A stretch of 48,616 nucleotides of DNA, taken from NCBI GenBank assembly GCA_016342655.1, contig JAEINL010000022.1, forward strand, positions 1 through 48,616. Reading direction: 5' to 3'. How positions within the stretch are numbered: the stretch's first letter is position 1; every line of letters starts with the position of its first letter. The translations under genes were made by a program, and so were the position numbers. Below the pieces are notes generated by a model. The model was given only the letters and a program-made list of their open reading frames with translations. It was not told the DNA's origin and did not search any database. Shown one piece after another: positions 4,472-44,976 of this stretch. The stretch comes from Sphaerochaeta sp. Lineage in GTDB: Bacteria > Spirochaetota > Spirochaetia > Sphaerochaetales > Sphaerochaetaceae.

Positions 4472-4915
4472 TTAGGGGTTGAGCGTAATGGAAATCAGGG
4501 TGTATACCCCTTGGGATATCTCTACCCAGACAAAGGTGCCATAGCGCAGTTCCTCGCCATACCTGAAGGGGACAGAGATAGTGTCCTGGCCTTTGATGGC
4601 CTTTCCCAGGAAAAATCTAGCCTGGGGAAGCAGGAGGGAAAGCTCTTTGTCAAAGGTACGGACAAATGAAAACCGAACATCTAGGGAAACATACTTCTCT
4701 ACCCAATCAAGGGAGTAAGGGGTTGTAAGGGCCTGGGCTGTATAAGCCTCACTGGAGAGCGGTTCCGGCTGGACAAGCTGTCCAATTGCGAGATCCTGAC
4801 CAAGTTGGGGATCCTCAGAAGTAAAGGAGAGCTGTGTGGAGAGCGGCAACGCTGCCACCGGTGATATCATCAGCAAACAAACAAGGACAAGACACAAGCC
4901 AGTGTGTTTATTCAT
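4472..4915 (-). CDS. Small secreted protein of unknown function
   Basis: A 147-residue protein with a clear signal peptide (MNKHTGLCLVLVCLLMISPV, probable cleavage after VAALP). The mature part is short, beta-rich and without Cys; phrases such as LDVRFSFVRTF and RYGTFVWVEI suggest alternating strands. No family recognised. It stands alone between the ABC operon and the divergent hppA gene. No Shine-Dalgarno sequence precedes the ATG; instead a strong promoter places transcription start at or next to it (see 4922-4950), so the mRNA is probably leaderless. The signal peptide and the promoter support it being a real gene. Confidence 0.7.
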   Translation of the reverse strand: MNKHTGLCLVLVCLLMISPVAALPLSTQLSFTSEDPQLGQDLAIGQLVQPEPLSSEAYTAQALTTPYSLDWVEKYVSLDVRFSFVRTFDKELSLLLPQARFFLGKAIKGQDTISVPFRYGEELRYGTFVWVEISQGVYTLISITLNP

Positions 4916-4921
4916 ATCTAT

Positions 4922-4950
4922 TGTGTAGACGATGAGATTCTATTTGTCAA
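4922..4950 (-). promoter_or_regulatory. Promoter, predicted leaderless start of the 147-residue secreted protein
   Basis: Minus strand: consensus TTGACA (4950-4945), 17-bp spacer, TACACA (4927-4922), then six bases to the ATG at 4915. Transcription would begin about at the A of ATG. Confidence 0.6.
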
Positions 4951-5074
4951 ATATAATCAGTGATATAAACCAGTTTTAGGTGGTGACTGGATATTTATGA
5001 TGAGTCTGCAATTGCCTAAAGGACACCAAAGAAAGATGTGGATTTTAGGATGCTAAAACAAAGGCCAAAAATTC

Positions 5075-5113
5075 TTGGTTTGTAGCCCTATATACATTAC
5101 AATACCAGTAATG
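5075..5113 (+). promoter_or_regulatory. Promoter and small palindrome upstream of hppA
   Basis: TTGGTT (5075-5080), 17-bp spacer, TACAAT (5098-5103). A CATTAC/GTAATG inverted repeat with a 7-base centre (5095-5113) straddles the -10 and could be an operator. The leader to the hppA ATG would be about 50 bases. Confidence 0.42.
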
Positions 5114-5159
5114 GGTTATAGCACCATATGCATTACATTAATTTTCAGAGGAATACAAT

Positions 5160-7310
5160 ATGATTGGATTTGTTATCATCGTTGCGATAGGAGCCATAGT
5201 ATTTGCCGCAATCAACTACTATGGCGTGAAGAAAAAGAATGCCGGAACTGAAGAGATGCAACAGATTGCTGCTGCTATCCAGGAAGGGGCAAGAGCCTTC
5301 TTGGTGCTCGAGTATTCAGTTATCATCAAGGTTGCTGTCATCATCGCCATTCTCCTTGGGGTCGTCGTTTCCGTATCCAGTGCATTTGCCTTTATCTTAG
5401 GAGCTACCATGAGCGCCAGTGCTGGGTGGATCGGAATGAATATTGCTACGATAAGCAATGTAAGGGTATCCAATGAAGCTCGCCTTACAAAAAGCTTAGG
5501 GCAGACCCTGCGCGTCGCTTTCAGAGGGGGATCGGTCATGGGCCTCTGTGTCGGTGGCTTTGCCCTGCTTGGACTTGCCATTGTCTATGTGGTGTTTGGC
5601 ATACTGCTCAAGCAGGTGTCGCCTGAAAACCTAGTATTCCACACTAACTGGCTGGGCATTTCAGACATCCCCTTCACGATGACCGTCAGCTCCTACGCCC
5701 TAGGGTGTTCCATCATAGCGATGTTCAACCGAGTAGGTGGGGGAATCTTCACCAAAGCAGCTGATATGGGTGCTGACCTGGTAGGAAAGACTGAAGCAGG
5801 TATCCCTGAAGACGACCCGAGGAACCCAGCGACCATAGCTGACAACGTTGGGGACAATGTTGGGGATGTGGCAGGACTCGGATCAGACTTACTGGAAAGT
5901 TATGTTGGGGCCCTTGTGTCTGCGATGATCTTGGCAGCATACATCTTCTTTTCCAACGGGGACATACCCGCTTCCCTAGTTGCAAAGCTAATCTATGTAC
6001 CTCTGCTTATAGCTGCAGTTGGTATCATCTCTTCCATGCTGGGCATTCTCTTCCTGCTGGTAAAGAAAGTCTCTTCCAATCCCCACAAGGAGCTCAATGC
6101 AGCGACCTTCATGGGCGCAGGCCTGACGATTCTTTCTTCAGGAGTCGTATCCTATCTTGTTTTCAGATCAGAGGACCTCAGCCACATTCATTTTGCTATG
6201 GGAGCCCTCTCACCCTGGGCCTGTGCAGTCCTTGGTATAGTAAGTGGTATTGTCATCGGGCAAATTGCCGAATACTACACCAGCTATGACTTCAAACCAA
6301 CCCAGAAAATTGCTGCAAGTTCCCAAGAAGGTGCTGCCCTTACCATTACCGAAGGGATGAGTGTCGGTATGATATCTGTTATCGCACCCGTCCTGGTCCT
6401 TGGCTTTGCCATCATCGCAGCGAATGTCACAGCAGGACTCTACGGAGTCGCGATGGCGGCCATCGGCATGCTTAGCTTTGTGACAGTAACGGTTTCCGTT
6501 GATACGTTCGGTCCCATTGCCGACAATGCCGGAGGCATAAGCGAAATGGCCAAATTGCATCCAGATGTCCGGGGTATTACCGACAAGCTGGATGCAGTGG
6601 GAAATACCACAGCCGCAATCGGAAAAGGATTTGCCATAGGATCGGCAACCCTTGCCGCCCTATCGCTGTTTTCCTCCTATCTCTATGCTCAGGCAGGCGA
6701 GAATGTTGTCCACGGATCAGCGATGATGCTCAATATGGTAAACCCACTTACCCTTGTAGGGGCTTTAATCGGGGCTGCTCTTCCCTATCTGTTCAGTGGT
6801 CTGCTCATTGAAGCTGTTGCAAATGCAGCAAGAAAAATGGTCCAGGAAGTAAGGCGTCAGTTCAAGGCAGACCCGGGTATTATACTCGGGACATCCCTTC
6901 CAGACTACAAGACCTGTATCAGCATCAGCAGTGCAGGGGCCCTCTCTGAGATGAGGCTACCCGCCCTCATCTCCGTTGCAACACCCTTGGTGACCGGCTT
7001 TATCTTTGGTGCTGAGTTTGTTGGTGGACTGCTCATCGGGACAACACTCTCTTCTGTCATGCTTGCCCTCTATACGGCAAATGCCGGAGGAGCATGGGAT
7101 AATGGGAAGAAGTATGTCGAGAACGGGCACTTTGGTGGTAAAGGATCCAATGCCCATAAGGCTGCTGTTGTAGGCGATACGGTAGGTGATCCCCTAAAAG
7201 ATACCGTGGGACCATCCTTGGATATCCTGATCAAGATTATGGCAATTGTGTCATTGATCTCAGTGTCCATTTTCAGCAAATATAACCTGTTTTCCTTTCT
7301 CATGAAGTAA
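5160..7310 (+). CDS. hppA: K+-dependent membrane-bound ion-translocating pyrophosphatase
   Basis: Integral inner-membrane pump that hydrolyses pyrophosphate and exports H+ or Na+, conserving energy from biosynthetic PPi. It has 716 residues and about 16 hydrophobic segments, normal for the family. The substrate site is plain: ADLVGKTEAGIPEDDPRNPA around 206-225, then DNVGDNVGD at 228-236, and a second acidic cluster DPLKDTVGPS near the C terminus. GNTTAAIGKG at 481-490 has Ala485 and Gly488 where K+-independent enzymes have Lys and Thr, so this belongs to the K+-dependent subclass. Whether it pumps Na+ or H+ I cannot decide. AGAGGA is seven bases before the ATG. Confidence 0.97.
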   Translation: MIGFVIIVAIGAIVFAAINYYGVKKKNAGTEEMQQIAAAIQEGARAFLVLEYSVIIKVAVIIAILLGVVVSVSSAFAFILGATMSASAGWIGMNIATISNVRVSNEARLTKSLGQTLRVAFRGGSVMGLCVGGFALLGLAIVYVVFGILLKQVSPENLVFHTNWLGISDIPFTMTVSSYALGCSIIAMFNRVGGGIFTKAADMGADLVGKTEAGIPEDDPRNPATIADNVGDNVGDVAGLGSDLLESYVGALVSAMILAAYIFFSNGDIPASLVAKLIYVPLLIAAVGIISSMLGILFLLVKKVSSNPHKELNAATFMGAGLTILSSGVVSYLVFRSEDLSHIHFAMGALSPWACAVLGIVSGIVIGQIAEYYTSYDFKPTQKIAASSQEGAALTITEGMSVGMISVIAPVLVLGFAIIAANVTAGLYGVAMAAIGMLSFVTVTVSVDTFGPIADNAGGISEMAKLHPDVRGITDKLDAVGNTTAAIGKGFAIGSATLAALSLFSSYLYAQAGENVVHGSAMMLNMVNPLTLVGALIGAALPYLFSGLLIEAVANAARKMVQEVRRQFKADPGIILGTSLPDYKTCISISSAGALSEMRLPALISVATPLVTGFIFGAEFVGGLLIGTTLSSVMLALYTANAGGAWDNGKKYVENGHFGGKGSNAHKAAVVGDTVGDPLKDTVGPSLDILIKIMAIVSLISVSIFSKYNLFSFLMK

Positions 7311-7327
7311 AAAAAAAGGAGTGTGCG

Positions 7328-8101
7328 ATGTTATATTATTATGTAGTGTTTTCTCCTATTGAAGCTCTGATAGCTTCTCAGCTCGAACCTAAGATGTTTG
7401 GCTCCTATATGGCAAGAGGATCGAAGAAAGGCTCTGCAGAGTGGCTCATGTTTGCAGAGATTACTAGCGGGTTTGGTGAGTATTTTGACTGGGACTATGC
7501 AAAGAGAAAATGCGTATCCCGTCCTGATGGCACCCTGAAGCACTCGCTGTACCTTTCAATCTATCGTGTCATTGAGCATATTCCCCTAGACCAGTATAAG
7601 GATATTTATCTGGTCACCAAGGATGGGTCTACGCTCGGCCTCTCCCAAGAGCCCTACAGAAAGCCAACCAACTGGGCTGGGTACGGCCTGTACAAGGAAC
7701 ATTGTCCGGTACACCCGTTCATCGCGAGTTCTCTGGAGCCAAAGGCTTTGGCTGACTACATCATCAACGATACTGAAAAGAAGATAACAGTGCCTGCCAT
7801 CATCTTCAACGATGTCACACGGATAGATTTTGATGAAAAAGAAGAGACCGGCAATATTGGTAGCATGTTCGAACGTGATCTGGAGCACGTAATCGAATGC
7901 ATCAATGAGGTGAAGGATAAAAAGGACAAGATTACCAAGACCATTGACCGCTCTTTTGATTCAAAGTTCACCTTTCAGATAATCGATACTGGCTTTTACA
8001 TTGCAAAAGGAAAAAGCATTCTCTTCTATCCCATGCCCAGTCGGGAGGAACTCAAGGAGCTCAATTATGACTGGGGGAAGAGTGCAAACATCTTTTCCTA
8101 G
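7328..8101 (+). CDS. Unknown protein with an internal two-fold repeat
   Basis: A 257-residue soluble-looking protein without signal peptide; no family recognised. It contains two similar segments: LIASQLEPKMFGSYMARG (residues ~14-31) followed by KKGSAEWLMFAEI, and FIASSLEPKALADYIIND (~137-154) followed by EKKITVPAIIFNDV. This suggests an ancient duplication of a ~120-residue unit. The second half has a charged helix (MFERDLEHVIECINEVKDKKDK). It starts 17 bases after hppA behind AAGGAG, so it may be cotranscribed with the pump. A strong hairpin at 8135-8169 closes the unit. Confidence 0.75.
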   Translation: MLYYYVVFSPIEALIASQLEPKMFGSYMARGSKKGSAEWLMFAEITSGFGEYFDWDYAKRKCVSRPDGTLKHSLYLSIYRVIEHIPLDQYKDIYLVTKDGSTLGLSQEPYRKPTNWAGYGLYKEHCPVHPFIASSLEPKALADYIINDTEKKITVPAIIFNDVTRIDFDEKEETGNIGSMFERDLEHVIECINEVKDKKDKITKTIDRSFDSKFTFQIIDTGFYIAKGKSILFYPMPSREELKELNYDWGKSANIFS

Positions 8102-8134
8102 GATTAGTCTCTGATCAGAGAGCATACCTATTTT

Positions 8135-8169
8135 GGAGGGCCCCTTGCCTTGATGGCAGGGGGCCCTCC
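8135..8169 (+). terminator. Strong hairpin terminator after the hppA unit
   Basis: A 15-bp G/C-rich stem with one G-U type pair (8135-8149 with 8155-8169), 5-base loop TTGAT. The following U-tract is weak (CCATTTCACTACTTT). Confidence 0.65.
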
Positions 8170-8182
8170 CCCATTTCACTAC

Positions 8183-8211
8183 TTTACACAGCTCATGGTT
8201 GACCTTACTAT
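8183..8211 (+). promoter_or_regulatory. Promoter, predicted leaderless start of the HD-domain gene
   Basis: TTTACA (8183-8188), 17-bp spacer, TACTAT (8206-8211), then six bases to the ATG at 8218. The only SD-like bases (CAGGT) touch the ATG too closely to serve as a ribosome site. Confidence 0.55.
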
Positions 8212-8217
8212 GCAGGT

Positions 8218-9492
8218 ATGAATACCGCTGTAGCCAAAAAACTCTCCAGTCTCTATACACACTTCAATGTAAGCATCCGAGACCCCCTATGGAAGGATGT
8301 CCACCTCAGTGAGGAACTCAAGCGCATCTACCTTACTCCTGCTGTGCAGAAGCTGGGCAGGATCAAACAACTCGGTCCCACCTTCCACCTCTATCCAGGG
8401 GCAGTACATACCCGCCTGGACCATAGTCTTGGGGTCTATCATATCAGTTACACCATCCTGACCAACCTGCTCAGGCAATCCTTGAGTAGCGGAGAGGATT
8501 CCATCCTAAGTGAGGAAGGGATGCGCACCTTCCTGTGTGCCTCCCTCCTGCACGATATCGGACACTTCCCCTTTGCCCATTCGCTGAAGGAGCTACCCCT
8601 ACGCTCCCATGAGACGATAGCCACTTCACTCATTGAAAATGACCGTCAACTCCATGATTCCATTGTGGAATGCGGGTGCTCGCCATCCCTGGTAGCTGCC
8701 ATCATCGACGATAGCCTTCCCACAGGAGATACTGAAATACTCTTTTACAGAAGTTTGTTATCAGGAGCCCTTGACCCTGACAAGCTTGACTACCTCAATC
8801 GCGATGCATTTTTCTGTGGGGTTCCCTATGGCATGCAGGATGTCTCCTTCATCACTAACCATCTGATGATTTTCAACGGCAAACCGGCTCTTCCTTTCTC
8901 TGCTGCAGGGTCAGTGGAACACCTCTTGTTCAGCAAATACCTCATGTACAAGAACGTCTACTGGCATACGAGGGTACGTAGTGCTACAGCTATGATCAAG
9001 AAGGCCCTTCTCTGCTCTTTAGAGGAGGGAATTATTGCTCCAGAAGAACTTTATGCCCTTGATGACGAGCAGTTTTTCATGGTCCCTGAGACACGTGCGT
9101 TCAAGCCCTTGACACTTTTCTCGCAAGTAAGGGACAACAACATGCTCAGCTGTCGTTTTGAAGAGGATTTTGACACAACACGCATATTGGACAAACAAGC
9201 CTCATCGTTGCAAGGCCGTCGTGTCATGGAGGAGAGTCTTTGGCAGAAGCTTAGCACTACCTACAAGAGTTTGGAGAGACATCAGGTCATCATAGACATT
9301 CCTGAACCTATCATGTTTGAGTCTGATATTCCCCTTATCCAGAAGGATGATACGCCCATAGCATTCAACAAGGCAGATACGGTTTTTTCACAAGATGTGG
9401 AAAAGGTCTTTACAAAGAACCTAAGAAAAACCAGAATCTTCACACCCTCCTATGTTGCGGCTGAAGTGCTTCTGGAGGCATTGGAGTCCTAA
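8218..9492 (+). CDS. HD-domain phosphohydrolase (dNTPase/SAMHD1-like)
   Basis: Cytoplasmic metal-dependent phosphohydrolase of the YdhJ/SAMHD1-like group, 424 residues. Metal ligands are visible in order: HTRLDHS at 64-70, the LLHDIGH doublet with HD at 112-113, His121, and the late DPDKLDYLNRD at 186-196 that completes the site. The family includes dNTP triphosphohydrolases, but many members have no proven substrate, so nucleotide hydrolysis is an inference. The C-terminal third is family-specific and unassigned. It is followed three bases later by ttcA, so the two genes form an operon expressed from the promoter at 8183-8211. Confidence 0.9.
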   Translation: MNTAVAKKLSSLYTHFNVSIRDPLWKDVHLSEELKRIYLTPAVQKLGRIKQLGPTFHLYPGAVHTRLDHSLGVYHISYTILTNLLRQSLSSGEDSILSEEGMRTFLCASLLHDIGHFPFAHSLKELPLRSHETIATSLIENDRQLHDSIVECGCSPSLVAAIIDDSLPTGDTEILFYRSLLSGALDPDKLDYLNRDAFFCGVPYGMQDVSFITNHLMIFNGKPALPFSAAGSVEHLLFSKYLMYKNVYWHTRVRSATAMIKKALLCSLEEGIIAPEELYALDDEQFFMVPETRAFKPLTLFSQVRDNNMLSCRFEEDFDTTRILDKQASSLQGRRVMEESLWQKLSTTYKSLERHQVIIDIPEPIMFESDIPLIQKDDTPIAFNKADTVFSQDVEKVFTKNLRKTRIFTPSYVAAEVLLEALES

Positions 9493-9495
9493 ACC

Positions 9496-10257
9496 ATGCA
9501 CGAGCTTCCAGAAAAACTCTCCTATACAAAACTCATAGAGGGGGACATTCCCCCTTGGGTGAGGCGTTTCATCAAACATACGGGCAAGGCCATCAACACC
9601 TATTCCATGATCAGAGAGGGGGAGAAGGTTCTTCTATCTGTCTCGGGAGGCAAGGACTCGCTTGGCCTTGCCCTGGCACTCTCTCTCAGAAGGAAGTGGA
9701 TGCCCATAGACTATGAACTGCAGGCTCTGATGATAAATTGGATAGAACACCCCATCCCTGATGAATTTAGGGAAAAACTTGCGCAGTTCTTTGCTTCTCT
9801 CAATATAGAGCTCTCCATAAAAGACGAACACCAATACCCAGAATCTTTCAAAGGGGAGTTCAACTGCTATCTCTGCTCGCGTAATCGTAGGCGTATCCTC
9901 TTTGAGGAGTGTGAAAAGAGAGGAATATCCGTCCTTGCTTTGGGTCATCACCTCGATGACCTGGTGGAGACGAGTCTCATGAACCTCTGTTTTCGTGGCA
10001 ATTTCTCTACGATGCAGCCGGTGCAACCCTTTTTCGATGGGAAAATCCAGATGATCAGGCCAATGATTGAAATCCATGAGAACAACCTAAAACAGCTAGC
10101 AGCACACTATGACTTGCCTGTGGTCAAACCGGTTTGTCCGTTTGACCAGACAAATATTCGCTCCCAAGTGAAACCCCTGGTAAAACAGCTCGTTCACATA
10201 GATAAGTTTGCCAGGGAACATATATACAATGCCCATACATTTGCAGGTCGGTTGTAA
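9496..10257 (+). CDS. ttcA: tRNA 2-thiocytidine synthetase TtcA-like protein
   Basis: ATP-dependent enzyme that activates and thiolates C32 of some tRNAs. The N-type PP-loop SGGKDS is at 50-55. The Fe-S ligands expected for TtcA are present: CYLC at 124-127 and a third Cys at 214 (KPVCPF). The HHLDD motif at 151-155, followed by ETSLMN, is also characteristic. Length 253 is slightly short but complete. GGAGTCC lies just upstream of the ATG inside the end of the HD gene. Other TtcA-like PP-loop enzymes thiolate different positions, so the exact base is not proven. Confidence 0.88.
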   Translation: MHELPEKLSYTKLIEGDIPPWVRRFIKHTGKAINTYSMIREGEKVLLSVSGGKDSLGLALALSLRRKWMPIDYELQALMINWIEHPIPDEFREKLAQFFASLNIELSIKDEHQYPESFKGEFNCYLCSRNRRRILFEECEKRGISVLALGHHLDDLVETSLMNLCFRGNFSTMQPVQPFFDGKIQMIRPMIEIHENNLKQLAAHYDLPVVKPVCPFDQTNIRSQVKPLVKQLVHIDKFAREHIYNAHTFAGRL

Positions 10258-10333
10258 CTTATTTGTCTTGTATTAGGTTTACAATTATAGTTCATATGTG
10301 TGATTATATACAGAGAAGGAGGAGAAAGAGCCT

Positions 10334-14395: not shown

Positions 14396-14419
14396 AGGGC
14401 CTACGGGCCCTTTCCTTTT
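14396..14419 (+). terminator. Rho-independent terminator after the FecR-barrel gene
   Basis: AGGGCC (14396-14401), loop TACG, GGCCCT (14406-14411), then TTCCTTTTG. Its T-tract runs into the -35 of the mutL promoter. Confidence 0.75.
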
Positions 14420-14446
14420 GCCCTAACGGCATAAACATGCTACATT
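14418..14446 (+). promoter_or_regulatory. mutL promoter, predicted leaderless
   Basis: TTGCCC (14418-14423), 17-bp spacer, TACATT (14441-14446), then six bases to the mutL ATG. No purine-rich ribosome site lies upstream of the ATG. Confidence 0.6.
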
Positions 14447-14452: not shown

Positions 14453-16261
14453 ATGAATATCAAACGACTCGACCCTTTGGTAGCACAGCGTATTGCTGCC
14501 GGAGAAGTGATAGAACGACCAGCGTCTGTAATGAGGGAACTGATAGACAACGCCCTTGATGCCAACTCAAAGAGCATTACAGCGAGTGTAGTGGAAGGAG
14601 GGTTGGAAGAGATCACCGTCATTGATGATGGGGATGGTATTGCAGAAGAAGACCTTCCCCTGCTTTGTGAGAGTCATGCGACCAGCAAGGTATCTTCCCT
14701 TGATGATCTCTACCAGCTCTCAACTATGGGCTTTCGAGGAGAGGCGCTGTATAGCATAGCTGCTGTCTCCAAAATTACCATTGCCAGTAGGTACAAAGGA
14801 GCATCACCTGCTTCCATTACCATCGACAATGGACATAAGAACCCGGTTATGCCAGGGGGTCCTGACCGAGGAACCAAGGTGTCTGTGGAAAACCTCTTCA
14901 AGGAGATACCGGCACGTAGGCAGTTCCTCAAGCGCCCCTCCACAGAAGCAACCATGTGCAAGAACATACTCCTTGAAAAATCTCTCGCGTTCCCCAAACG
15001 TTCATTCAAGTTCTACACAGACGGAAAACTACGCCTCGACCTGAATGCCACATCACGAAAAGAGCGAGTTCTCGATGCCCTTGCGACAAGCCAGAACATT
15101 ATCCCATCAGAGATGCTCGAACTTCATGAGACTGCCGCCCGATTTAGCCTCTATGCTGTCTGCTCCTCCCCTGCAATATTCCGTAGTGACAGATCGCATA
15201 TCAAGATATACATCAATGACCGCCCTATTGAGGACTATGCCCTGGTCCAAGCCGTGACGTATGGCTATGGCGAGCTTTTGCCAGGGGGTTCCTTCCCCTA
15301 CTGTTATCTCTTCATCACCGTAGACCCTACGCTTGTGGACTTCAACATCCATCCCACCAAACGGGAAGCCAAGCTACGCAATAAGGCAGAGATTCATCAC
15401 CAGATTGTCTCCATGATAGCAAGCCAGATCAAGAGAACCCTACCCCGCCTTATCAAGGAAGTACAAACGAACCTCACAGAGACAGAGCAGAACCTCTTCT
15501 CTTCTCCCAACACTTCAGGCTTCTCTCCTTCTCCTTCATATGATTCGTCAAATTCCCAGGGTCTAGGCTCTTCTTCCCATGAAAAGGGATATTCCTACAC
15601 CCACCAGAACAAACCCTCAGACCCTCTCTGGTTTCAAAAGGCCAAAGAGGCACTGCAAGAGAACAGGATGGAGACGTCGCGAAGAAGCGAAGAGGTCGAT
15701 ATCTGGGCAGAGCAGACACAGGAGGAGAGCTTTGTCTATCTTGGACAAGCCTTCAACCTCTTTCTCATAGCTCAAAAAGGGGATGAACTCTTCTTAGTGG
15801 ACCAACATGCAGCCCATGAACGCATTCTTTTTGATGCTGTGAGGCTTCGTCAGGAGGTTCAGGCTCTGATGATACCCGTAGAGTTTGAAGTGGAGAGGGA
15901 TGTCGATGCCTACCTACAGGAGAGACTTGACGTCTATCTTAACCTAGGCATAAAACTGGAAAGGAAAGAACCGCTAGAGTGGCAACTTCTTGCCATACCA
16001 GCCATGTACAAATCCATTGAAAAAGAGGTGGTCTCATTTATCCAGGGCCATGCTGGCGATGCCAAGGAGATTGAGAAAGGTCTCTATGCCATTGTCGCAT
16101 GCCATGCAGCAATAAAGAGCGGTGACAACGTTGACCGCACTACTGCCATTGAGTTGCTTAAAAAGGTATTTGCCTTGGAAGATCCCACCTGTCCCCATGG
16201 AAGGACCTTCGTAGTGAGACTCAACAAGGATGAGCTTGCAAGGGCTGTAGGAAGGACCTAG
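14453..16261 (+). CDS. mutL: DNA mismatch repair protein MutL
   Basis: GHKL ATPase that couples mismatch recognition by MutS to strand removal. The N-terminal ATPase is complete: IAAGEVIERPASVMRELIDN (11-30), DDGDGI near 58-63, TMGFRGEAL near 89-97 and GTKVSVENLF. The C-terminal dimerisation domain begins near residue 420 (YLGQAFNLFLI, then DQHAAHERILFD). An endonuclease-type motif DQHAAHERI is kept, so it could nick DNA, as in bacteria lacking MutH. Length 602 is normal. Its TAG stop is interleaved with the stop of the converging lipoprotein gene. No mutS is in the window. Confidence 0.97.
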   Translation: MNIKRLDPLVAQRIAAGEVIERPASVMRELIDNALDANSKSITASVVEGGLEEITVIDDGDGIAEEDLPLLCESHATSKVSSLDDLYQLSTMGFRGEALYSIAAVSKITIASRYKGASPASITIDNGHKNPVMPGGPDRGTKVSVENLFKEIPARRQFLKRPSTEATMCKNILLEKSLAFPKRSFKFYTDGKLRLDLNATSRKERVLDALATSQNIIPSEMLELHETAARFSLYAVCSSPAIFRSDRSHIKIYINDRPIEDYALVQAVTYGYGELLPGGSFPYCYLFITVDPTLVDFNIHPTKREAKLRNKAEIHHQIVSMIASQIKRTLPRLIKEVQTNLTETEQNLFSSPNTSGFSPSPSYDSSNSQGLGSSSHEKGYSYTHQNKPSDPLWFQKAKEALQENRMETSRRSEEVDIWAEQTQEESFVYLGQAFNLFLIAQKGDELFLVDQHAAHERILFDAVRLRQEVQALMIPVEFEVERDVDAYLQERLDVYLNLGIKLERKEPLEWQLLAIPAMYKSIEKEVVSFIQGHAGDAKEIEKGLYAIVACHAAIKSGDNVDRTTAIELLKKVFALEDPTCPHGRTFVVRLNKDELARAVGRT

Positions 16262-24376: not shown

Positions 24377-25126
24377 TCAAAACAGGGTCTGCAACATCCC
24401 CCCTGCGAGGGTCTTCAGCTCCCTACCACTTATAAAGGTGGCATAACGCAACATGTACGCTTTTATGCGAAGAGCTGCACGATCACTAAGCTCTACAGCC
24501 ACAGCTGAAGGAAAGTCCATCCCCTTGGTAAGGGTCAGATACCTTCTGGCTCCCGGGCCGAGGATCATGGCAGTATCCAGGGTGGCACAAGATTCACAAC
24601 AGGGACTTCCCATCTGTGAGTTGAACCGGATGATCTCCTCTGCAGCATAGGGTCTTTCACAAATAGGGCATCTGGTGAAGTCCGCCTGCAAGCCACAAAT
24701 GTCCAAGAGATGCAACACGAACTGGATAAGTATTCGGGCTACAAGGTCTTGGTGGGAACAGAGCATATCAAGGGCCTTGCTCAACAGTCCATACTGGGAT
24801 GTACTATCCCCCCCATTGGTGTTGATAACAAGCTCACAAAAAAACAGGGCGGCATAGTTTGTACCCAGATCGGTGCGAATCTCATCATGGGTAGCGATGA
24901 GCTGGACATCCTTAAGAGTATAGTCACGTTTTACAGGGTTGTAGTATAGAAAGAACTGTCCATCGGAGAACACATCTCCCTTCACAGCCTTAACTGACTT
25001 CCTAGCCCCATAACTGACCACATCAATGAGGCCAAAATCAAGGGTCAACAGCTTGAGCCGGCGGTTCATCTGTCCGTACCGTATGCTATGCAGGACTATT
25101 GCCAAGGACGATACGTTTCGTTCCAT
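24377..25126 (-). CDS. recO: DNA repair protein RecO
   Basis: Loads RecA on SSB-coated DNA together with RecR. The N-terminal OB fold shows SLAIVLHSIRYGQMNRRLKL and VDVVSYGARKS-like text; the zinc site is CPIC and later CCESC (near 165 and 186), which is the RecO pattern of CxxC...CxxC. Length 249 is normal. GGAGGG is three bases before the ATG. It is the first gene of a recO-recJ unit whose two products act in the same recombination pathway. Confidence 0.92.
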   Translation of the reverse strand: MERNVSSLAIVLHSIRYGQMNRRLKLLTLDFGLIDVVSYGARKSVKAVKGDVFSDGQFFLYYNPVKRDYTLKDVQLIATHDEIRTDLGTNYAALFFCELVINTNGGDSTSQYGLLSKALDMLCSHQDLVARILIQFVLHLLDICGLQADFTRCPICERPYAAEEIIRFNSQMGSPCCESCATLDTAMILGPGARRYLTLTKGMDFPSAVAVELSDRAALRIKAYMLRYATFISGRELKTLAGGMLQTLF

Positions 25127-25141: not shown

Positions 25142-25170
25142 AGAGTAGAACAGTGAAGGTAAAAAATCAA
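25142..25170 (-). promoter_or_regulatory. recO-recJ promoter
   Basis: Minus strand: TTGATT (25170-25165), 17-bp spacer, TACTCT (25147-25142). Its -35 lies four bases from the -35 of the divergent DUF4105 promoter, so RNA polymerase cannot occupy both at once. Confidence 0.5.
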
Positions 25171-25174: not shown

Positions 25175-25203
25175 TTGGAAGATCAGCTTTCCTGTGATAT
25201 GCT
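25175..25203 (+). promoter_or_regulatory. Promoter, predicted leaderless start of the DUF4105 gene
   Basis: TTGGAA (25175-25180), 17-bp spacer, TATGCT (25198-25203), then seven bases to the ATG at 25211. No ribosome site is present. Confidence 0.52.
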
Positions 25204-25210: not shown

Positions 25211-26500
25211 ATGAAACGTCTAGTGGTCTCCCTACTTTTTCTAACTGTGACCCTCTGCTCCATCTTCTCCTTCAGTGTGGGCGAAAGACAGGTACAGGAA
25301 CAACCTTTTGACAGCGAACAGGAACTTGCAAAGATAGACTTTTCCAAGGAGCTTGCTCCCAACCAACTCGATTGGGTCAAACTGGCAACCCTCTCCCTGC
25401 TGACAGTTGGAAGCGGAGACCCTCTGTACTCTTGGTTCGGGCACAGTGCACTCATCATAGGCCAACCCTCAGGGGGAGAGGTAATGTATGACTATGGGGT
25501 ATTTGATCCTGACCAGAAAAACTTTTACCTCAATTTCGCCCGAGGCCGCATGTATTACTCGGTCTGGGAAAGTGCCGCAGCATGGAGAATTGAGGAAGCC
25601 TTGAACGAGAAGCGTGATGTGAAGCTCATAGAGCTGGCCCTCACACCCGAGGCAAAACTTGCCACCATCCGATTCCTGCAAAACAATGCCAAAGAAGAGA
25701 ACAGTACCTATCTCTATCATTTCTACTACGACAACTGCGCAACCAGGATCCGCGACATCCTTAATGCTGCAACCGATGGAGCGTTCCGTAGTTGGGCGGA
25801 GGCACAAACCACCACATCCAGTTACCGCCAACTTGTACAGCGTTATCTGAGCCATTCACCGGCAGTATTCTGGGTCCTTGATTTTCTCCAGGGAAAGACA
25901 ATTGACAAAAAACTGAACCGCTATGAAGAGATGTTCCTCCCTGAAAGCCTGTACCAGGCGGTGTTGGACTTCTCCCCCTCCCTCGTGAAAAGCTCAGAAA
26001 TACTCCAGGATACCAGTGCCAGCGACATACGATTTAGAGCCCATACTAAGAATGTGAACCATGATTGGGCATATGCCCTTTTTGGTTGCATGTTGGCACT
26101 GCTGTTGTTCGTGCTGGGAAAACGGTTCAAGAGGACAACATCCCTCTTGTTTGCCCTGTTGCTACTTGCCTTCGGGATTCTAGGAAGCGTTCTGCTGTTC
26201 ATGATGACTTTTTCCGATATGGATATGACGTGGTTCAACGAGACTATCATCCTGGTCAATCCACTGCTCTTCATCGGGATGGGCTCTGCCCTTGTTGCTG
26301 CATTTTCTAAAAAGAAGCAAGGGATACTAGCAAAGAGAACCTTTCAGGGAATGTTTGTTCTGGGAATTGCACTGGTGGTGACGAAGGGTCTGTTACCAAC
26401 AGTGTTGGTGCAGGACAACCTGAAGGTTATCCTGCTACTGTTGCCCCTATCGCTTTCAGGGGCGGCCTTTTATGGCAGGAGCGACCGAAAAGAGCTCTAG
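25211..26500 (+). CDS. DUF4105 (Lnb-like) envelope protein with C-terminal membrane segments
   Basis: A 429-residue exported protein: signal sequence MKRLVVSLLFLTVTLCSIF, a periplasmic DUF4105 domain (~45-270) and five hydrophobic segments from ~285 on. The domain motifs are WFGHSALII, then VMYDYGVFDPDQKNFYLNFA, and FYYDNCATRIRDI; the conserved His and Cys are probably catalytic. Bacteroides Lnb, a lipoprotein N-acyltransferase, has this layout, so lipoprotein acylation is a reasonable guess, not a proof. I use ATG 25211 rather than an upstream TTG at 25175, because the TTG is the -35 of the promoter and would hide the signal peptide. The gene overlaps the converging LemA-like gene by 45 bases. 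Confidence 0.8.
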   Translation: MKRLVVSLLFLTVTLCSIFSFSVGERQVQEQPFDSEQELAKIDFSKELAPNQLDWVKLATLSLLTVGSGDPLYSWFGHSALIIGQPSGGEVMYDYGVFDPDQKNFYLNFARGRMYYSVWESAAAWRIEEALNEKRDVKLIELALTPEAKLATIRFLQNNAKEENSTYLYHFYYDNCATRIRDILNAATDGAFRSWAEAQTTTSSYRQLVQRYLSHSPAVFWVLDFLQGKTIDKKLNRYEEMFLPESLYQAVLDFSPSLVKSSEILQDTSASDIRFRAHTKNVNHDWAYALFGCMLALLLFVLGKRFKRTTSLLFALLLLAFGILGSVLLFMMTFSDMDMTWFNETIILVNPLLFIGMGSALVAAFSKKKQGILAKRTFQGMFVLGIALVVTKGLLPTVLVQDNLKVILLLLPLSLSGAAFYGRSDRKEL

Positions 26501-27008: not shown

Positions 27009-27959
27009 TTATTTCTTAAGGACAATCTTGGTCCCTTTCCCCTCGTACAGAGCGCCGTAGACATGAGAAGGGTCTGTTATGAGACCTGTATTGCCAGTAC
27101 TCTCTACAAAGTCAACAATTGCTTGCATCTTAGGAAGCATGCTTCCAGGAGCGAAATGCCCCTCAGCCATGTACTTCCTTGCTTCCTCTACTGTGATAGT
27201 ATCGAGGGTCTGCTGGTTGGGCTTGCCAAAATTCAGACAGACTTTTTCCACTGCAGTGGAGATAACAAAGATGTCAGCCTTCAACTCCTTAGCCATAAGA
27301 GCGGCAGCAAGGTCCTTGTCGATGACAGCTTCCCTACCGCTGATGTAGCCATTTTCATCACGCACTACAGGGATGCCACCACCACCGACTGCAATGACGA
27401 TGACCTTATTATCCAACAGGGTCTTGATAGTGTCGATCTCTACAATCGCCTTGGGCTTGGGACTTGCCACAACACGGCGGTAGCCACGTCCGGCATCTTC
27501 TACACATACCCAACCATCATGCTCTTCACGTCGCTTGGCATCCTCGCTTGTCATGAAGGAACCTATTGGCTTGGAAGGGTTCTGGAAGGAAGGATCACTG
27601 TCAGAAACCTCTACCTGCGTAACGACAGTTGCCACATTAGGCTTGAGGCCCACCTTGTTGAACTCGTTGTTCAAAGCCATCTGCAACTGGTAGCCGATGG
27701 CACCTTGGGTGTCAGCCACGCAACTGTCCAAGGGAACAGTGTGGAGAATGGAACGGGAAAACTCTGCACGAAGCAGAATAAAGCCAACCTGCGGTCCGTT
27801 TCCATGGGCTATAACCACCCTGTGACCTGCTTCAACAAGCTTTACAATATGAGCCGCTGTCTTGCGGGCAGCCTCATACTGGGCAGTTACCGTTACATGT
27901 TTTGCATCTTCAATGAGTGAGTTACCGCCTATGGCGATGACTATCAGTTTACTATCCAT
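27009..27959 (-). CDS. arcC: Carbamate kinase
   Basis: Makes ATP from carbamoyl phosphate and ADP. IVIAIGGNSLI at 6-16, VIAHGNGPQVGFILLR near 48-63, VIAVGGGGIPVVRDENG and the DKDLAAALMA pocket are the amino-acid-kinase signatures of ArcC; length 316 is normal. The arginine deiminase and ornithine transcarbamylase genes are not next to it, so carbamoyl phosphate must come from elsewhere. AAGGAG is eight bases before the ATG. Together with acetate kinase it fits an organism relying on substrate-level phosphorylation. Confidence 0.96.
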   Translation of the reverse strand: MDSKLIVIAIGGNSLIEDAKHVTVTAQYEAARKTAAHIVKLVEAGHRVVIAHGNGPQVGFILLRAEFSRSILHTVPLDSCVADTQGAIGYQLQMALNNEFNKVGLKPNVATVVTQVEVSDSDPSFQNPSKPIGSFMTSEDAKRREEHDGWVCVEDAGRGYRRVVASPKPKAIVEIDTIKTLLDNKVIVIAVGGGGIPVVRDENGYISGREAVIDKDLAAALMAKELKADIFVISTAVEKVCLNFGKPNQQTLDTITVEEARKYMAEGHFAPGSMLPKMQAIVDFVESTGNTGLITDPSHVYGALYEGKGTKIVLKK

Positions 27960-36727: not shown

Positions 36728-36755
36728 AAGGTAACCTAGACCAATGGAGGAGTCC

Positions 36756-36929
36756 ATGACAATTCACGAGCAAATCGTAGCACAGTATGAGACCTATCTT
36801 GCAGAGAACCAGAAGTTCACTGAGAAAGGCGTAAAAGTATCGGCAGCTAGAGCCCGTAAAGCTTTGGCCGAAATCGCTAAGCTTAGCAAAGAACGCAGAA
36901 AAGAGATTCAGGCAGAAAAAGCAGAATAG
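36756..36929 (+). CDS. Small basic histone-H1-like protein
   Basis: A 57-residue helical protein. The stretch FTEKGVKVSAARARKALAE, then IAKLSKERRKEIQAEKA, follows the Hc1-type pattern of bacterial histone-H1-like proteins of Bacteroidetes (KGNKAAGTRARKA..E..K...E.RK). It probably binds DNA or RNA and helps compact the nucleoid, but this is inferred from a short motif. The ATG at 36756 follows GGAGGA; an upstream ATG at 36744 would sit on that site. It has its own promoter and terminator, as for an abundant protein. Confidence 0.7.
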   Translation: MTIHEQIVAQYETYLAENQKFTEKGVKVSAARARKALAEIAKLSKERRKEIQAEKAE

Positions 36930-38563: not shown

Positions 38564-38577
38564 AATACAAACAATCA

Positions 38578-38654: not shown

Positions 38655-38737
38655 TACATTACTGTTAATTTTTCTAGAACGAGTTATTCATGAAAATTTC
38701 TTCCAGAGGGGTTTATACACCCCTGGACCTCTGATTT

Positions 38738-41392: not shown

Positions 41393-41426
41393 AATGGGCC
41401 TCCTACAGCGAGAAAATATTGCGTGT

Positions 41427-41455
41427 ATAGTACCAGAATTGAGAAGGCTCTACAA
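41427..41455 (-). promoter_or_regulatory. valS promoter, nested in a terminator hairpin
   Basis: Minus strand: TTGTAG (41455-41450), 17-bp spacer, TACTAT (41432-41427) preceded by TGG, an extended -10. The -35 lies in the downstream arm of the hairpin at 41443-41472. Confidence 0.58.
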
Positions 41456-41472
41456 GTCAATGTAGAGCCTTC
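41443..41472 (-). terminator. Terminator of the cysS-sigma-anti-sigma operon
   Basis: Perfect 12-bp stem (41443-41454 with 41461-41472), 6-base loop, 28 bases after the anti-sigma stop. The downstream U-tract is poor (TCAATTCT), so read-through into valS is possible. Confidence 0.65.
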
Positions 41473-41499
41473 AGCGAGGGGAAACAAGGAGGCAAAGCA

Positions 41500-42036
41500 C
41501 TATTCTAAAGGCGTAACCGCCTTTACTTCCAGCGTAACTGCATACCCCATTGCATCAAGATGCTGCACTATCTGCTCCAAGGAAAAAGAATCTAGGGTGA
41601 CACTCTGTGTGTCCGAAACCTGACGGACATTAGCACTGTCCATAGGGGTAGCTATGCCAGGAAGGATATCCTGGGCTTGGCTTGCATTGGTGCCGAAAAG
41701 GACAAAAGACCCAATGAACACCACAACAAAAGCAGCAGCAGTTGTCATCAGAGCAGGAACAAGTCTGACTTGAACTTTCTTACGAAAAATATGCATCTTC
41801 TTGTCTTTCATGGGAAACCTGCTTTTTTCAAAAAAGGCAAGAACCCTTTCCTGCCTCAGACTGATATCCTCATCAGAAAGGATAGCAGAAGCTATACGCT
41901 GTTGCAGCTGTCTCAGCTGGTCCAGACGCTGTCTGCACGCATTGCAATATCCTAGATGTTCCTCAACCTGTGTTCTCCATGGCTCATCAAGCTCACCATC
42001 AAGATAGGTATTCAGCAATTCATCATCTACACACAT
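41500..42036 (-). CDS. Anti-sigma factor with zinc-binding domain
   Basis: Membrane-anchored inhibitor of the ECF sigma factor encoded just upstream. Residues ~1-45 are a cytoplasmic zf-HC2 domain with HLGYCNAC (H-x3-C-x2-C). A basic stretch and one membrane helix (LVPALMTTAAAFVVVFIGSFVLF near 91-113) follow, then ~65 periplasmic residues that presumably sense envelope state. Total 178 residues. CAGGAG is six bases before the ATG, three bases after the sigma gene. The signal is unknown. Confidence 0.9.
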   Translation of the reverse strand: MCVDDELLNTYLDGELDEPWRTQVEEHLGYCNACRQRLDQLRQLQQRIASAILSDEDISLRQERVLAFFEKSRFPMKDKKMHIFRKKVQVRLVPALMTTAAAFVVVFIGSFVLFGTNASQAQDILPGIATPMDSANVRQVSDTQSVTLDSFSLEQIVQHLDAMGYAVTLEVKAVTPLE

Positions 42037-42039
42037 AGG

Positions 42040-42558
42040 CTACTCCTGGGTAAGCAGTGACTCAAGCATCTTTCGTGCCCTATACACTCTCACCTTCACA
42101 TTACTTTCGGAAATGTGCAAAACCTGGGCAATCTGTTTGTAGTCCATATCCGTATACTCCTTCATCACTATGACAAGGCGAAACTTCTCTGGAAGCTGGT
42201 CTATCGCATCCTGAACCTGCTTACGGGTCTCTTTTTCAATAAGGACCTGTTCGCCTCCATTTGGATTGGAGTGGGAAGAAGGATACTTCTTCAGCTTGTC
42301 AACCATCATCATCTCACGCGATTTTCGCTTCACCTGATTGATGGCCAAATTCTTCGATACCCTAATGAGCCAATACTTGGCATCATTAAGGGAGGGAAAA
42401 GCCATGCCCTTGTCAAAAAACCTGATAAAAGCTTCTTGGCAAATCTCTTCAGCAAGATCCTGATTATTGGTGACGTGGTATACTACACGCATCAAAACCG
42501 GGAAAACCTGCTCATAAACTTGCTTGAACGCCTGCTCATCGTTGCTCTGTATTTCCAT
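42040..42558 (-). CDS. ECF-type RNA polymerase sigma factor
   Basis: A 172-residue extracytoplasmic-function sigma factor. Region 2 spans ~8-75 (YHVTNNQDLAEEICQEAFIR, then YWLIRVSKNLAINQVKR) and region 4 ~112-168 (LPEKFRLVIVMKEYTDMDY, then ISESNVKVRVYRARKML). It would direct polymerase to envelope-stress-type genes when the adjacent anti-sigma releases it. It starts 27 bases after cysS with no clear ribosome site and ends three bases before the anti-sigma gene. Confidence 0.94.
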   Translation of the reverse strand: MEIQSNDEQAFKQVYEQVFPVLMRVVYHVTNNQDLAEEICQEAFIRFFDKGMAFPSLNDAKYWLIRVSKNLAINQVKRKSREMMMVDKLKKYPSSHSNPNGGEQVLIEKETRKQVQDAIDQLPEKFRLVIVMKEYTDMDYKQIAQVLHISESNVKVRVYRARKMLESLLTQE

Positions 42559-42585
42559 ATCTTTAACAACTCACTGGTAACCAAG

Positions 42586-44007
42586 TTACATCTTTTTTTC
42601 CAAAGAGGGCCCAGAGGCTGTATCTTTGACAAGGTAGCCCAACGCATCCAACTCTTCCCTAATCCTATCTGAAAGGGTCCAGTCTTTTGCCAGTTTGGCT
42701 TCCGTTCGCTTCTTTAGGAGCTCTAGCACCACAGGATCATCAATGACCTCAACGGGGGGGACTTGCAAGGTTGCAAACCCAAGGCCGAAGACCTGATCAA
42801 AGCTTAGGACCAAGGAGTATTTCTCATCAAAGGACAGCCCATCATCCTTGAGAACGCCCCACAGGTCTGCAAGGCATCGTGGGGTGTTGAGGTCATTCTG
42901 AATATGAGTAGTGAAGGCCTCCTGGTAATCGAGAGCCTTTTGGCTCTCCAGTACAACCAAATGAGCACCTTCCCTCTTGAGGGCGATGATGCGGTCACAC
43001 ACATTTTTCCTAGCAGTCTTGGCAGTAACCATGGAGTCAAAGGAGAACTTCAGCTGGCTACGGTAGTGCCCTCCAAGGCAGAAAAACCGGTAGTCCATCG
43101 GGTCATATCCCTTTTTCTTCAGAAACTCAAGAGTAAGGAACTCCCCTTTGCTCTTGCTCATCTTGCCGGTCTCATCAAGCAGGAACTCCCCATGCAACCA
43201 ATATTTCACCCAGGGTTTCTTCCCACTGGCAGCCTCACTCTGGGCTATCTCATTGGTATGGTGGACCGGAATGGCATCGATACCGCCGCAGTGGATGTCA
43301 AATTGCTCGCCAAGATAGTGCATGCTCATCGCCGAGCACTCTATGTGCCAGCCGGGGAAGCCTTTTCCCCAGGGAGAATCCCACATCATTGACTGTGCCC
43401 CAAACTTGCTTTTAGTAAACCAGAGGACGAAGTCCTTGTTGTTCCTCTTATTGCTGTCCTGATCAACATCATCCCGAACTGCAGTGCGTAAACTTTCAAG
43501 GTCAAGCTTTGCAAGCTTGCCGTAGTCATCGATGGAATCGATGCTGAAGTAGACATTGCCACCGCTAACATAGGTATGCCCACGTTTCTCCAGGCGCTCG
43601 ATGAGGGCGATCATCTGGGGGATGTGCTCAGTCGCCTTACAGGTAACCGCAGGGTGTATCATCCCCAGCTGGTCAAAGTCACTGAAGAAAGCCTTGGTGT
43701 AGTATTCAGCAATATCCCAGACTGTCTTCTTGGTCTTGTGGGCCATCTTCTCTAGCTTGTCCTCACCTTCATCACCATCATCGGTAAGGTGTCCGACATC
43801 TGTTATGTTCATGACGTGTCTGACGGAATATCCTGCAAAAAGAAGGGTCCGCTTCAAAAGGTCTTCAAAAAGAAACGTCCTGAGATTCCCGATATGTGCA
43901 TAGTTGTAAACAGTCGGTCCGCATGTATATAATCCAACTTCCTTTTCGTCGATAGGTTCAAATTTTTCTATATTGCGACTCATTGTATTGTATAGGGAAA
44001 CTGGCAT
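42586..44007 (-). CDS. cysS: Cysteinyl-tRNA synthetase
   Basis: Class I synthetase charging tRNA-Cys, 473 residues. VGLYTCGPTVYNYAHIGNLR holds the zinc-ligand Cys and the HIGH-like HIGN; GKMSKSKGEFLTL is the KMSKS loop; GWHIECSAMSMHYLG and HHTNEIAQSEA add the other zinc ligands. I start at ATG 44007 after AAAGGAG; a longer frame from 44085 covers what the promoter at 44068-44096 shows to be untranscribed or leader. It heads an operon with the ECF sigma and anti-sigma genes. Confidence 0.96.
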   Translation of the reverse strand: MPVSLYNTMSRNIEKFEPIDEKEVGLYTCGPTVYNYAHIGNLRTFLFEDLLKRTLLFAGYSVRHVMNITDVGHLTDDGDEGEDKLEKMAHKTKKTVWDIAEYYTKAFFSDFDQLGMIHPAVTCKATEHIPQMIALIERLEKRGHTYVSGGNVYFSIDSIDDYGKLAKLDLESLRTAVRDDVDQDSNKRNNKDFVLWFTKSKFGAQSMMWDSPWGKGFPGWHIECSAMSMHYLGEQFDIHCGGIDAIPVHHTNEIAQSEAASGKKPWVKYWLHGEFLLDETGKMSKSKGEFLTLEFLKKKGYDPMDYRFFCLGGHYRSQLKFSFDSMVTAKTARKNVCDRIIALKREGAHLVVLESQKALDYQEAFTTHIQNDLNTPRCLADLWGVLKDDGLSFDEKYSLVLSFDQVFGLGFATLQVPPVEVIDDPVVLELLKKRTEAKLAKDWTLSDRIREELDALGYLVKDTASGPSLEKKM

Positions 44008-44023
44008 TGAGAGCTCCTTTAGG

Positions 44024-44052
44024 TTGCCCACCCCAGAAAAAGGGGGTAAGAT
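44024..44052 (+). promoter_or_regulatory. murB promoter, predicted leaderless
   Basis: TTGCCC (44024-44029), 17-bp spacer, TAAGAT (44047-44052), six bases to the murB ATG. GGGGG at 44042-44046 is a possible but too distant SD. Confidence 0.52.
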
Positions 44053-44058
44053 ATCTCT

Positions 44059-44976
44059 ATGCCTATCAATGTACGCAATAGCCATGAAAAAATCAACCTT
44101 GAAGAACTGCTGGTTCAGAACCTTTCCCTTTCCCCTTATTCCTCGATCAACACAGGAGGAAAAGCGGATTTGGCGGCCTATCCAACTGATTTTGAAGAAT
44201 TACGGGCTCTGCTCGCCTATGCAAATAGTCAAGGTTTGCCAATTACTGTGCTCGGGGGTATGACCAATTCCTTGATCAGCGACCAGGGAATAGAAGGCCT
44301 TACCATCCTGACCACACACCTGGCTCGCAGACATGTGCAAGGCGAGATGTTCTGCGTACGAACAGGGCTTTCCCTCGATCGTACCATCGACTTTGCCTTG
44401 GAGGCAGGCCTTTCAGGTCTGGAGTTACTCGGAGGCATTCCTGGTAGTGTGGGAGGTGCCATCTATGGCAACGCCGGAGCAAATGGCATGGCAATCGGGG
44501 ACTTGCTCTACTATGTCGACTACATGACCTTCGATGGCAAGCTCCACAGGAAACAGACCCACAATGATGAGTTTTCCTATCGCTGTTCTCCCTTTACAGG
44601 TCTCAAGGACATCATCATCTATGAGGCGGGCTTTAGGCTGAATCCTACCCTACACACCTCTGAAGCCAGAAAGATAAAGGATGAGGTAAAGCACAAACGC
44701 AAAGAGAAGGGGTATTACGAAAATCCAAGCTTAGGAAGCATATTTGCAAACCCCCCAGGCAATTATGCCGGCAAGCTTCTCGAAAGCTGCTCCCTCAGAG
44801 GCAAGAGCGTCGGTGGAGCTATGGTAAGCAACAGGCATTGCAACTTCATCATCAACAGCAATGGCAAAGCAACTTCGCATGATGTCCATGCCTTGCTCAG
44901 TCTCATGCAAAAAGAAGTGTTCCAAAAAACTGGTGTTCAGCTTCGTCCAGAAATCCAGCTCATTGGCCGCTGGTGA
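44059..44976 (+). CDS. murB: UDP-N-acetylenolpyruvoylglucosamine reductase
   Basis: FAD/NADPH enzyme that makes UDP-MurNAc, second committed step of peptidoglycan precursor synthesis. The FAD-binding text YSSINTGGKADLAAYPTDFE, ITVLGGMTNSLIS, and GLELLGGIPGSVGGAIYGNAGANG is classic; the catalytic Ser is in LGSIFANPPG and the late Glu in LRPEIQL. At 305 residues it is complete. The ATG coincides with the predicted transcription start. Its 3' end overlaps the converging envelope gene by 17 bases. Confidence 0.96.
   Translation: MPINVRNSHEKINLEELLVQNLSLSPYSSINTGGKADLAAYPTDFEELRALLAYANSQGLPITVLGGMTNSLISDQGIEGLTILTTHLARRHVQGEMFCVRTGLSLDRTIDFALEAGLSGLELLGGIPGSVGGAIYGNAGANGMAIGDLLYYVDYMTFDGKLHRKQTHNDEFSYRCSPFTGLKDIIIYEAGFRLNPTLHTSEARKIKDEVKHKRKEKGYYENPSLGSIFANPPGNYAGKLLESCSLRGKSVGGAMVSNRHCNFIINSNGKATSHDVHALLSLMQKEVFQKTGVQLRPEIQLIGRW
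44068..44096 (-). promoter_or_regulatory. cysS operon promoter, inside the start of murB
   Basis: Minus strand: TTGATT (44096-44091), 17-bp spacer, TACATT (44073-44068). Transcription would start near 44061, giving a ~54-base leader. The site lies within murB codons 4-13 and faces the murB promoter. Confidence 0.52.

Follow-up and report, generated by a model that had tools for sequence, protein, structure and literature searches.

Promoters ending at the start codon predict leaderless mRNAs at four, and probably five, genes of a Sphaerochaeta contig

Do some Sphaerochaeta genes begin their transcripts on the start codon itself? The question is raised by a 48,616-nucleotide stretch of Sphaerochaeta sp. 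DNA (NCBI GenBank assembly GCA_016342655.1, contig JAEINL010000022.1, positions 1 to 48,616, forward strand), the whole of which is called the window here. An earlier reading made without database searches (the sequence-only reading) had claimed a -35 box, a 17-bp spacer, a -10 box and a gap of 6-7 bases before the ATG of five genes, and had taken all five to be leaderless. These genes encode MutL, MurB, an HD-domain protein (HD), a DUF4105 protein (Lnb-like) and a protein of 147 residues (p147). We put the probability at about 0.88 that mutL, murB, the Lnb-like and HD genes, and probably p147, each have a main sigma-70-type promoter from which transcription begins at the start codon, and that the predicted leaderless messages are read without a Shine-Dalgarno sequence. 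Judged by the spacing, the housekeeping RNA polymerase would start about 7 bases past the -10 hexamer, at the A of the ATG or at the base preceding it, and the mRNA would have no leader. Ribosomes, likely 70S particles with initiator tRNA, would begin on the 5' terminal AUG by analogy with other bacteria, where they start on that codon of leaderless mRNA according to the accessible text of a review (PMC9031893). The genes and their boxes, scored against consensus, are as follows.

4472..4915, minus strand: p147, open reading frame of 147 residues; candidate leaderless gene, the weakest of the five
4945..4950, minus strand: p147 -35 box TTGACA (6/6)
4922..4927, minus strand: p147 -10 box TACACA (3/6), 6 bases before the ATG at 4915
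8183..8188, plus strand: HD -35 box TTTACA (5/6); TTTACA at 22/23 loci and TTTACT at the other one
8206..8211, plus strand: HD -10 box TACTAT (4/6), 6 bases before the ATG at 8218
8218..9492, plus strand: HD-domain protein gene (Pfam HD and HD_assoc_2), predicted leaderless
14418..14423, plus strand: mutL -35 box TTGCCC (4/6)
14441..14446, plus strand: mutL -10 box TACATT (4/6), preceded by TGC (extended -10 form), 6 bases before the ATG at 14453
14453..16261, plus strand: mutL (TIGR00585, 441.8 bits, cut-off 180), predicted leaderless
25175..25180, plus strand: Lnb-like -35 box TTGGAA (4/6)
25198..25203, plus strand: Lnb-like -10 box TATGCT (4/6), preceded by TGA, 7 bases before the ATG at 25211
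25211..26500, plus strand: Lnb-like (DUF4105) gene (Pfam Lnb_N), predicted leaderless
44024..44029, plus strand: murB -35 box TTGCCC (4/6)
44047..44052, plus strand: murB -10 box TAAGAT (4/6), 6 bases before the ATG at 44059
44059..44976, plus strand: murB (TIGR00179, 205.5 bits, cut-off 144.5), predicted leaderless

With each box scored individually, the claimed layout was found at all five starts, and none of them has a usable Shine-Dalgarno sequence, as had been said. The spacer is 17 at every promoter, a pyrimidine directly precedes each ATG, and TG stands one base upstream of the -10 box at mutL and the Lnb-like gene. The HD protein scored 28.3 bits against Pfam HD (cut-off 22) and 31.4 bits against the dGTP triphosphohydrolase model TIGR01353, below its cut-off of 152.35. 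The Lnb-like protein exceeded the cut-off for Pfam Lnb_N (86 bits, cut-off 22.2) and fell below that of the Lnb lipoprotein N-acyltransferase model NF051878 (140 bits, cut-off 550), and is therefore named Lnb-like only. The p147 protein had no Pfam or NCBIfam match, and mutL no DNA match in E. coli. The MutL protein is closest, among named relatives, to that of Sphaerochaeta sp. UBA8956 (95% identical), in keeping with the genus; the source genome measures 3.9 Mb. In the window, an Rfam scan gave no match at the gathering threshold and a tRNA scan found none.

How much does the motif say by itself? We defined a strict pattern (TTG, 17 bases, TANNNT, 6-7 bases, ATG), which occurs five times in the window against 1.1 times in order-2 Markov sequence, where 2 of 200 runs reached five. 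Its matches are mutL, the Lnb-like gene, murB and two that are not at supported genes; HD and p147 fail it, the p147 box TACACA lacking the TANNNT form. These last two were not counted: one, at ATG 5111, does not share the reading frame of the pyrophosphatase gene that starts at 5160, and the one at ATG 243 (minus strand, open reading frame 1-243, 63 codons) has no relative in 10 stretches. The motif alone thus gives only modest evidence above chance, and it is conservation that gives clear evidence.

Conservation was assessed by following the 39 called genes of the window in 10 relatives (0 to 10 orthologues per gene) and by a test across the genus, in which 26 genomes were searched, or 24 for mutL, the source genome being counted. 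The genus-wide test required TANNNT 5-8 bases before the start, a -35 box matching at least 3/6 of the consensus and a spacer of 16-18. The layout was present at 25/25 murB, 23/23 HD, 23/23 Lnb-like and 16/21 mutL loci, after 3 of 26 HD loci with a missing 5' end and 2 of 25 Lnb-like loci had been dropped. Among the 10 traced relatives it was present in 10/10 for HD, 9/10 for mutL, 5/5 for Lnb-like and 7/7 for murB. TANNNT lies 6-8 bases before the start at all 23 HD loci and 6-7 bases before it at all 23 Lnb-like loci. At murB the -10 box varies (TAAGAT, TATGAT, TATAGT, TACTAT, TACGAT) yet stays TANNNT, 6 bases from the start, at all 25 loci. Fifteen distant class members had a MutL match; nine of these yielded loci, five of which passed the layout test. 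One Lnb-like orthologue, at locus L134 of genome G021, has a TAG within the match and is possibly a broken or misassembled copy.

The absence of a Shine-Dalgarno sequence was then set against the other genes of the window. Under a stricter rule, 17 of the 39 called genes keep only a Shine-Dalgarno sequence, four (HD, mutL, Lnb-like, murB) only the leaderless layout, one (36744) both and 10 neither, including p147 and rpsU; the remaining seven have fewer than two usable orthologues. The sequence-only reading had contrasted the five genes with leadered neighbours, and rightly: rpsU, its arcC (the amino-acid-kinase gene at 27009-27959) and valS each keep a Shine-Dalgarno sequence in 8/8 orthologues, their families having been checked and the AGGAGG of rpsU lying 13 bases away. 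At 36744, an Hc1-like gene, the layout is present in 6/8 at an upstream ATG; it was rejected as leaderless and treated as leadered because a Shine-Dalgarno start at 36756 is kept in 8/8. The gene read from that conserved start, 36756-36929, encodes a small Hc1-like (histone H1-like) protein.

These promoters could be real and yet minor, the main transcripts beginning further upstream and carrying a leader. HD and mutL each follow a gene on the same strand, from which transcription could read through. The starts, however, keep no usable Shine-Dalgarno sequence, though 17 of the 32 window genes having enough orthologues do, and a leader would therefore serve no known initiation. The distance from promoter to start also stays at 6-8 bases, exactly 6 at murB, down to 48% protein identity. 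We consider such upstream starts unlikely. A true start further downstream, behind a Shine-Dalgarno sequence and with the upstream ATG unused, is more improbable again. It draws on the downstream candidate starts of p147 and on the many HD and Lnb-like orthologues that align only from internal residues (up to 34), which leaves the N-terminus of these two less fixed by protein alignment. Against it, MurB (25/25) and genus MutL (20/21) orthologues align from residue one, and the 60 bases that follow the ATG of HD, mutL, Lnb-like and murB contain no candidate start keeping a Shine-Dalgarno sequence.

Is the layout a property of these genes only? Collinear stretches of two species, G005 and G018, contain 447 shared in-frame ATG codons in 337 pairs of reciprocal best matches, whose median identity is 90%. 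In both species alike, TANNNT preceded 35 of these codons by 6 bases and 11 by 7, against a background of 4.6 per distance (Poisson P 5e-18); with a -35 box of at least 4/6 also required, the count was 24 against 2.1. No peak was seen before ATG pairs lying out of frame (three at each distance, n = 233) or before other start codons (0/93 shared GTG and 2/171 shared TTG at 6-7 bases). Among the 46 candidates, a shared TTG gave a spacer of 17 in 17 cases, 18 in seven and another length within 12-23 in three. A pyrimidine precedes the ATG in 43/46 candidates, as expected of a transcription start point, compared with 123/190 Shine-Dalgarno-led ATG codons and 97/152 ATG codons with the hexamer at other distances. 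Forty-one of the 46 have no Shine-Dalgarno sequence.

The candidates often adjoin a divergent gene (29/45, against 50/201 Shine-Dalgarno genes), and a same-strand gene within 30 bases is found at 4/45 of them against 86/201; by gene order alone they fit single genes or the first gene of a transcription unit. Their functions are mixed. The sequence-only reading had spoken of a regular class including DNA-repair and cell-wall genes; an excess of this spacing does exist genome-wide, as described below, but no such functional class was seen among the 40 of 46 candidates scanned with Pfam, a scan made without a background set. The scan omitted the mutL and Lnb-like orthologues, three end-crossing genes and one more. 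It returned DAHP synthase, Lgt, LeuRS, CarD, MnmE, QueH, transporters, regulators and hydrolases, and five scanned candidates had no Pfam match below 1e-8. The genes for Lgt (L203:4316-5272), leucyl-tRNA synthetase (L204:8133-10646) and a CarD-like protein (L210:16159-16659) are leaderless candidates in both G005 and G018. In deeper pairs, the hexamer was shared at 6-7 bases before 4/42 ATG pairs (G000/G005), 2/34 (G000/G016) and 9/65 (G016/G005); these pairs partly duplicate window genes and chosen stretches.

The genome-wide scan that had been proposed with the sequence-only reading was run by counting the strict pattern at 6-7, 9-10 and 12-13 bases before ATG, frames ignored. Seven Sphaerochaeta genomes all showed an excess at 6-7 bases: G000 185/92/100, G001 160/83/81, G002 135/75/37, G005 163/88/51, G016 163/90/76, G018 156/70/65 and G019 150/80/55, summing to 1112, 578 and 465. 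The shifted distances replaced a reversed-pattern control, which was set aside because reversal alters codon bias; shifted distances keep the coding phase. In a sample of 79 genomes picked to cover the families of the class, from 149 plus G016, the 6-7 count exceeded the 12-13 count in 78 (median ratio 2.2), and 37 of 39 families had a ratio of at least 1.3 in every member. The exceptions are family f19, with genomes of about 1 Mb (54 vs 58 in G043 and 51 vs 41), and G087, one of three f11 genomes (112 vs 97). The largest excess of the 79 was in G160 (384 vs 100). In E. coli K-12, four 50-kb stretches containing 156 called genes showed no peak: the 6-7-base count was 5 against an expected 8.4, and 0 against 0.9 when a -35 box was required.

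Chance plus composition is the least credible explanation of all and is refuted for this class of sites: TANNNT has a background of about 2% per position, -10-like hexamers are common and a few would fall close to an ATG, and two of the five strict window matches are not at supported genes, but the excess at 6-7 bases appears solely before in-frame ATG between species, recurs in seven whole genomes, and is absent from 200 kb of E. coli and from G043. At p147 chance is a possible explanation.

We estimate that putative leaderless starts account for 3-6% of the genes in Sphaerochaeta. Expressed per called gene within one genome, the excess was 5.0% in G000 (contigs drawn from a pattern-search list, window included) and 4.5% in G016 (stretches defined by coordinates, window synteny included), and 9.5% in G005 and 10.4% in G018 in the stretches chosen from the hit list.

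Several observations weigh against leaderless starts or against their extent. The single boxes are weak, the -10 boxes matching 3-4/6 of the consensus, and a consensus promoter scan detected none at mutL. Five of 21 genus mutL loci are without the layout. At p147 it is limited to the source genome and two close relatives (TTGACA-17-TACACA/TACATA); of its 23 loci, three others have TTGACA-16-TAGTAT-6-ATG and the remainder vary, several of them carrying a Shine-Dalgarno sequence. The leaderless reading of five genes is upheld by a spacing kept widely in the genus at HD, mutL, Lnb-like and murB and is weakly supported at p147. A loose word list flags a Shine-Dalgarno-like run upstream of murB in 6/7 orthologues, and GGAG lies 12 bases from the murB start at 3/25 loci; the AAGGGGG run of murB ends about 12 bases upstream, inside the promoter. 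The 5' region of the divergent gene cysS could also account for part of the conservation upstream of murB. Among the 46 pair candidates, five bear a Shine-Dalgarno-like motif at the start and 10 share one at some candidate start. The rate of 46/337 is too high, as the stretches were partly selected after hits were seen, and the 11% that remains after subtracting background was rejected as a genome rate since the stretches were picked for hit-list collinearity. Such selection makes the rate too large but leaves position, frame, spacer and -1 base unaffected. For another 400 kb of G005, taken for their collinearity in the list for 9-10 bases when that for 6-7 bases had already been seen, the count at 6-7 bases was 26, with 16.6 expected; when a -35 box was required it was 18, with 3.8 expected. 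The excess per called gene there is 2.8%. Finally, a survey of 260 prokaryotes (Nakagawa 2017, PMC5397173) gives in its accessible text a negative mean for six Spirochaetes in the component linked to leaderless or S1-type initiation; by its own account, Actinobacteria lack this pattern as well.

Leaderless initiation also appears to be exchanged for other modes at some orthologues. The five genomes in which mutL is without the layout are G004, G007, G015, G022 and G023 (L017-L021). There mutL starts at, or a few bases past, the apparent stop codon of the upstream gene, which suggests coupling. The Lnb-like start is GTG at 7/23 loci, the -10 box being exactly 6 bases away at each. Divergent to the Lnb-like gene lies recO:

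25165..25170, minus strand: recO -35-like box TTGATT, 4 bp from the Lnb-like -35 box
25142..25147, minus strand: recO -10-like box TACTCT; TTGATT-17-TANNNT at 22/23 loci
24377..25126, minus strand: recO (Pfam RecO_C and RecO_N), short leader with GGAGG

The recO loci mostly carry this short GGAGG leader. L154 and L155 do not have it: with the ATG 6 bases past the -10 box, these two loci would give a leaderless recO message.

At murB, the candidate promoter is interlocked with that of cysS on the other strand:

44091..44096, minus strand: cysS -35-like box TTGATT, within murB codons 11-13, at 25/25 loci
44068..44073, minus strand: cysS -10-like box TACATT, within murB codons 4-5, at 25/25 loci
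44014..44018, minus strand: cysS Shine-Dalgarno sequence AGGAG, exactly 40 bases from the murB ATG at 25/25 loci
42586..44007, minus strand: cysS, class I tRNA synthetase of cysteinyl type (Pfam tRNA-synt_1e), leadered

The start and Shine-Dalgarno sequence of cysS are kept in 7/7 orthologues, and the promoter-like TTGATT-17-TACATT lies inside murB codons 4-13, interlocked with the murB promoter, in 25/25 genomes. Third codon positions of murB are 94% identical in codons 2-14 and 52% in codons 15-40. By the usual 7-base rule, the murB start codon would be where both transcripts begin, within about 3 bp of each other. Two polymerases, one at each site, would occupy overlapping DNA and are likely to exclude each other. 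We tentatively suggest, as an idea that may well prove wrong, that in Sphaerochaeta murB and cysS share one start point, the promoter of either gene lying within the transcribed region of the other, and that exclusion between the two polymerases could make the locus a built-in switch selecting either cell-wall precursor or cysteinyl-tRNA synthesis; the class may also pack divergent genes without any space between them by means of leaderless starts. Such a switch would be possible because murB, as proposed, needs no leader.

How new is this? The sequence-only reading had called leaderless genes little documented in spirochaetes, which overstates the case, because such genes were predicted in 6 of 18 Spirochaetes genomes by Zheng et al. 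(2011, BMC Genomics 12:361, PMC3160421), at a mean of 3.9% (1.8-6.9), and differential RNA sequencing of Leptospira interrogans (2017, PMC5243855) placed the 5' ends of about 440 genes within 10 nt of the start, with 184 and 170 genes exactly at it at 30 and 37 C; both papers are cited here from their accessible text. The kind is thus already known, predicted in 2011 and mapped in Leptospira in 2017. The TA-led (TANNNT-led) genes described in PMC3160421 resemble those found here, with TANNNT about 12 bases upstream, no Shine-Dalgarno sequence and a place as first operon genes. An excess of TANNNT at about -12 was found genome-wide, and the hexamer lies there at HD, mutL, Lnb-like and murB and not at p147; Shine-Dalgarno sequences are lacking, murB being flagged only by the looser list; and the starts are AUG with little GUG or UUG, the exception being the Lnb-like GTG loci. 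In this connection, PMC9031893 describes a strong preference for AUG in E. coli and efficient use of GUG in some actinobacteria. The main text of PMC3160421, as far as accessible, does not include Sphaerochaeta; relative to it, the present work extends to orthologue conservation, exact spacing, the -1 pyrimidine and the excess in 78 of 79 chosen class genomes.

In Leptospira interrogans, likewise a spirochaete, many 5' ends fall on or close to the start. Its leaderless transcripts are experimental and those of Sphaerochaeta predicted; and the accessible part of PMC5243855 reports a sigma-54 motif alone, in contrast to the sigma-70-like motif of the Sphaerochaeta sites. The leaderless genes of Actinobacteria and Deinococcus-Thermus have the same architecture according to the accessible text of PMC3160421 and PMC9031893, which put their share at more than 20% of genes, compared with about 3-6% here. 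PMC9581028 names no spirochaete in its accessible text. A literature search joining Sphaerochaeta and leaderless found no report, and one for leaderless, spirochete and transcription start site returned the Leptospira paper alone. What is added here is the genus- and class-wide conservation, the apparent switches of initiation mode and the murB/cysS interlock, at which no literature search was aimed.

If 5'-end mapping agrees, leaderless initiation would be a regular second mode across most of the spirochaete class. It would then not be confined to Actinobacteria, Deinococcus and Leptospira, and would be weak or missing in family f19 and one f11 genome. Start-codon calling in these genomes should in that case use the -10 box. 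The orthologue series of mutL, recO and the Lnb-like gene (ATG or GTG) would serve as natural experiments on leaderless, Shine-Dalgarno-led and probably coupled initiation.

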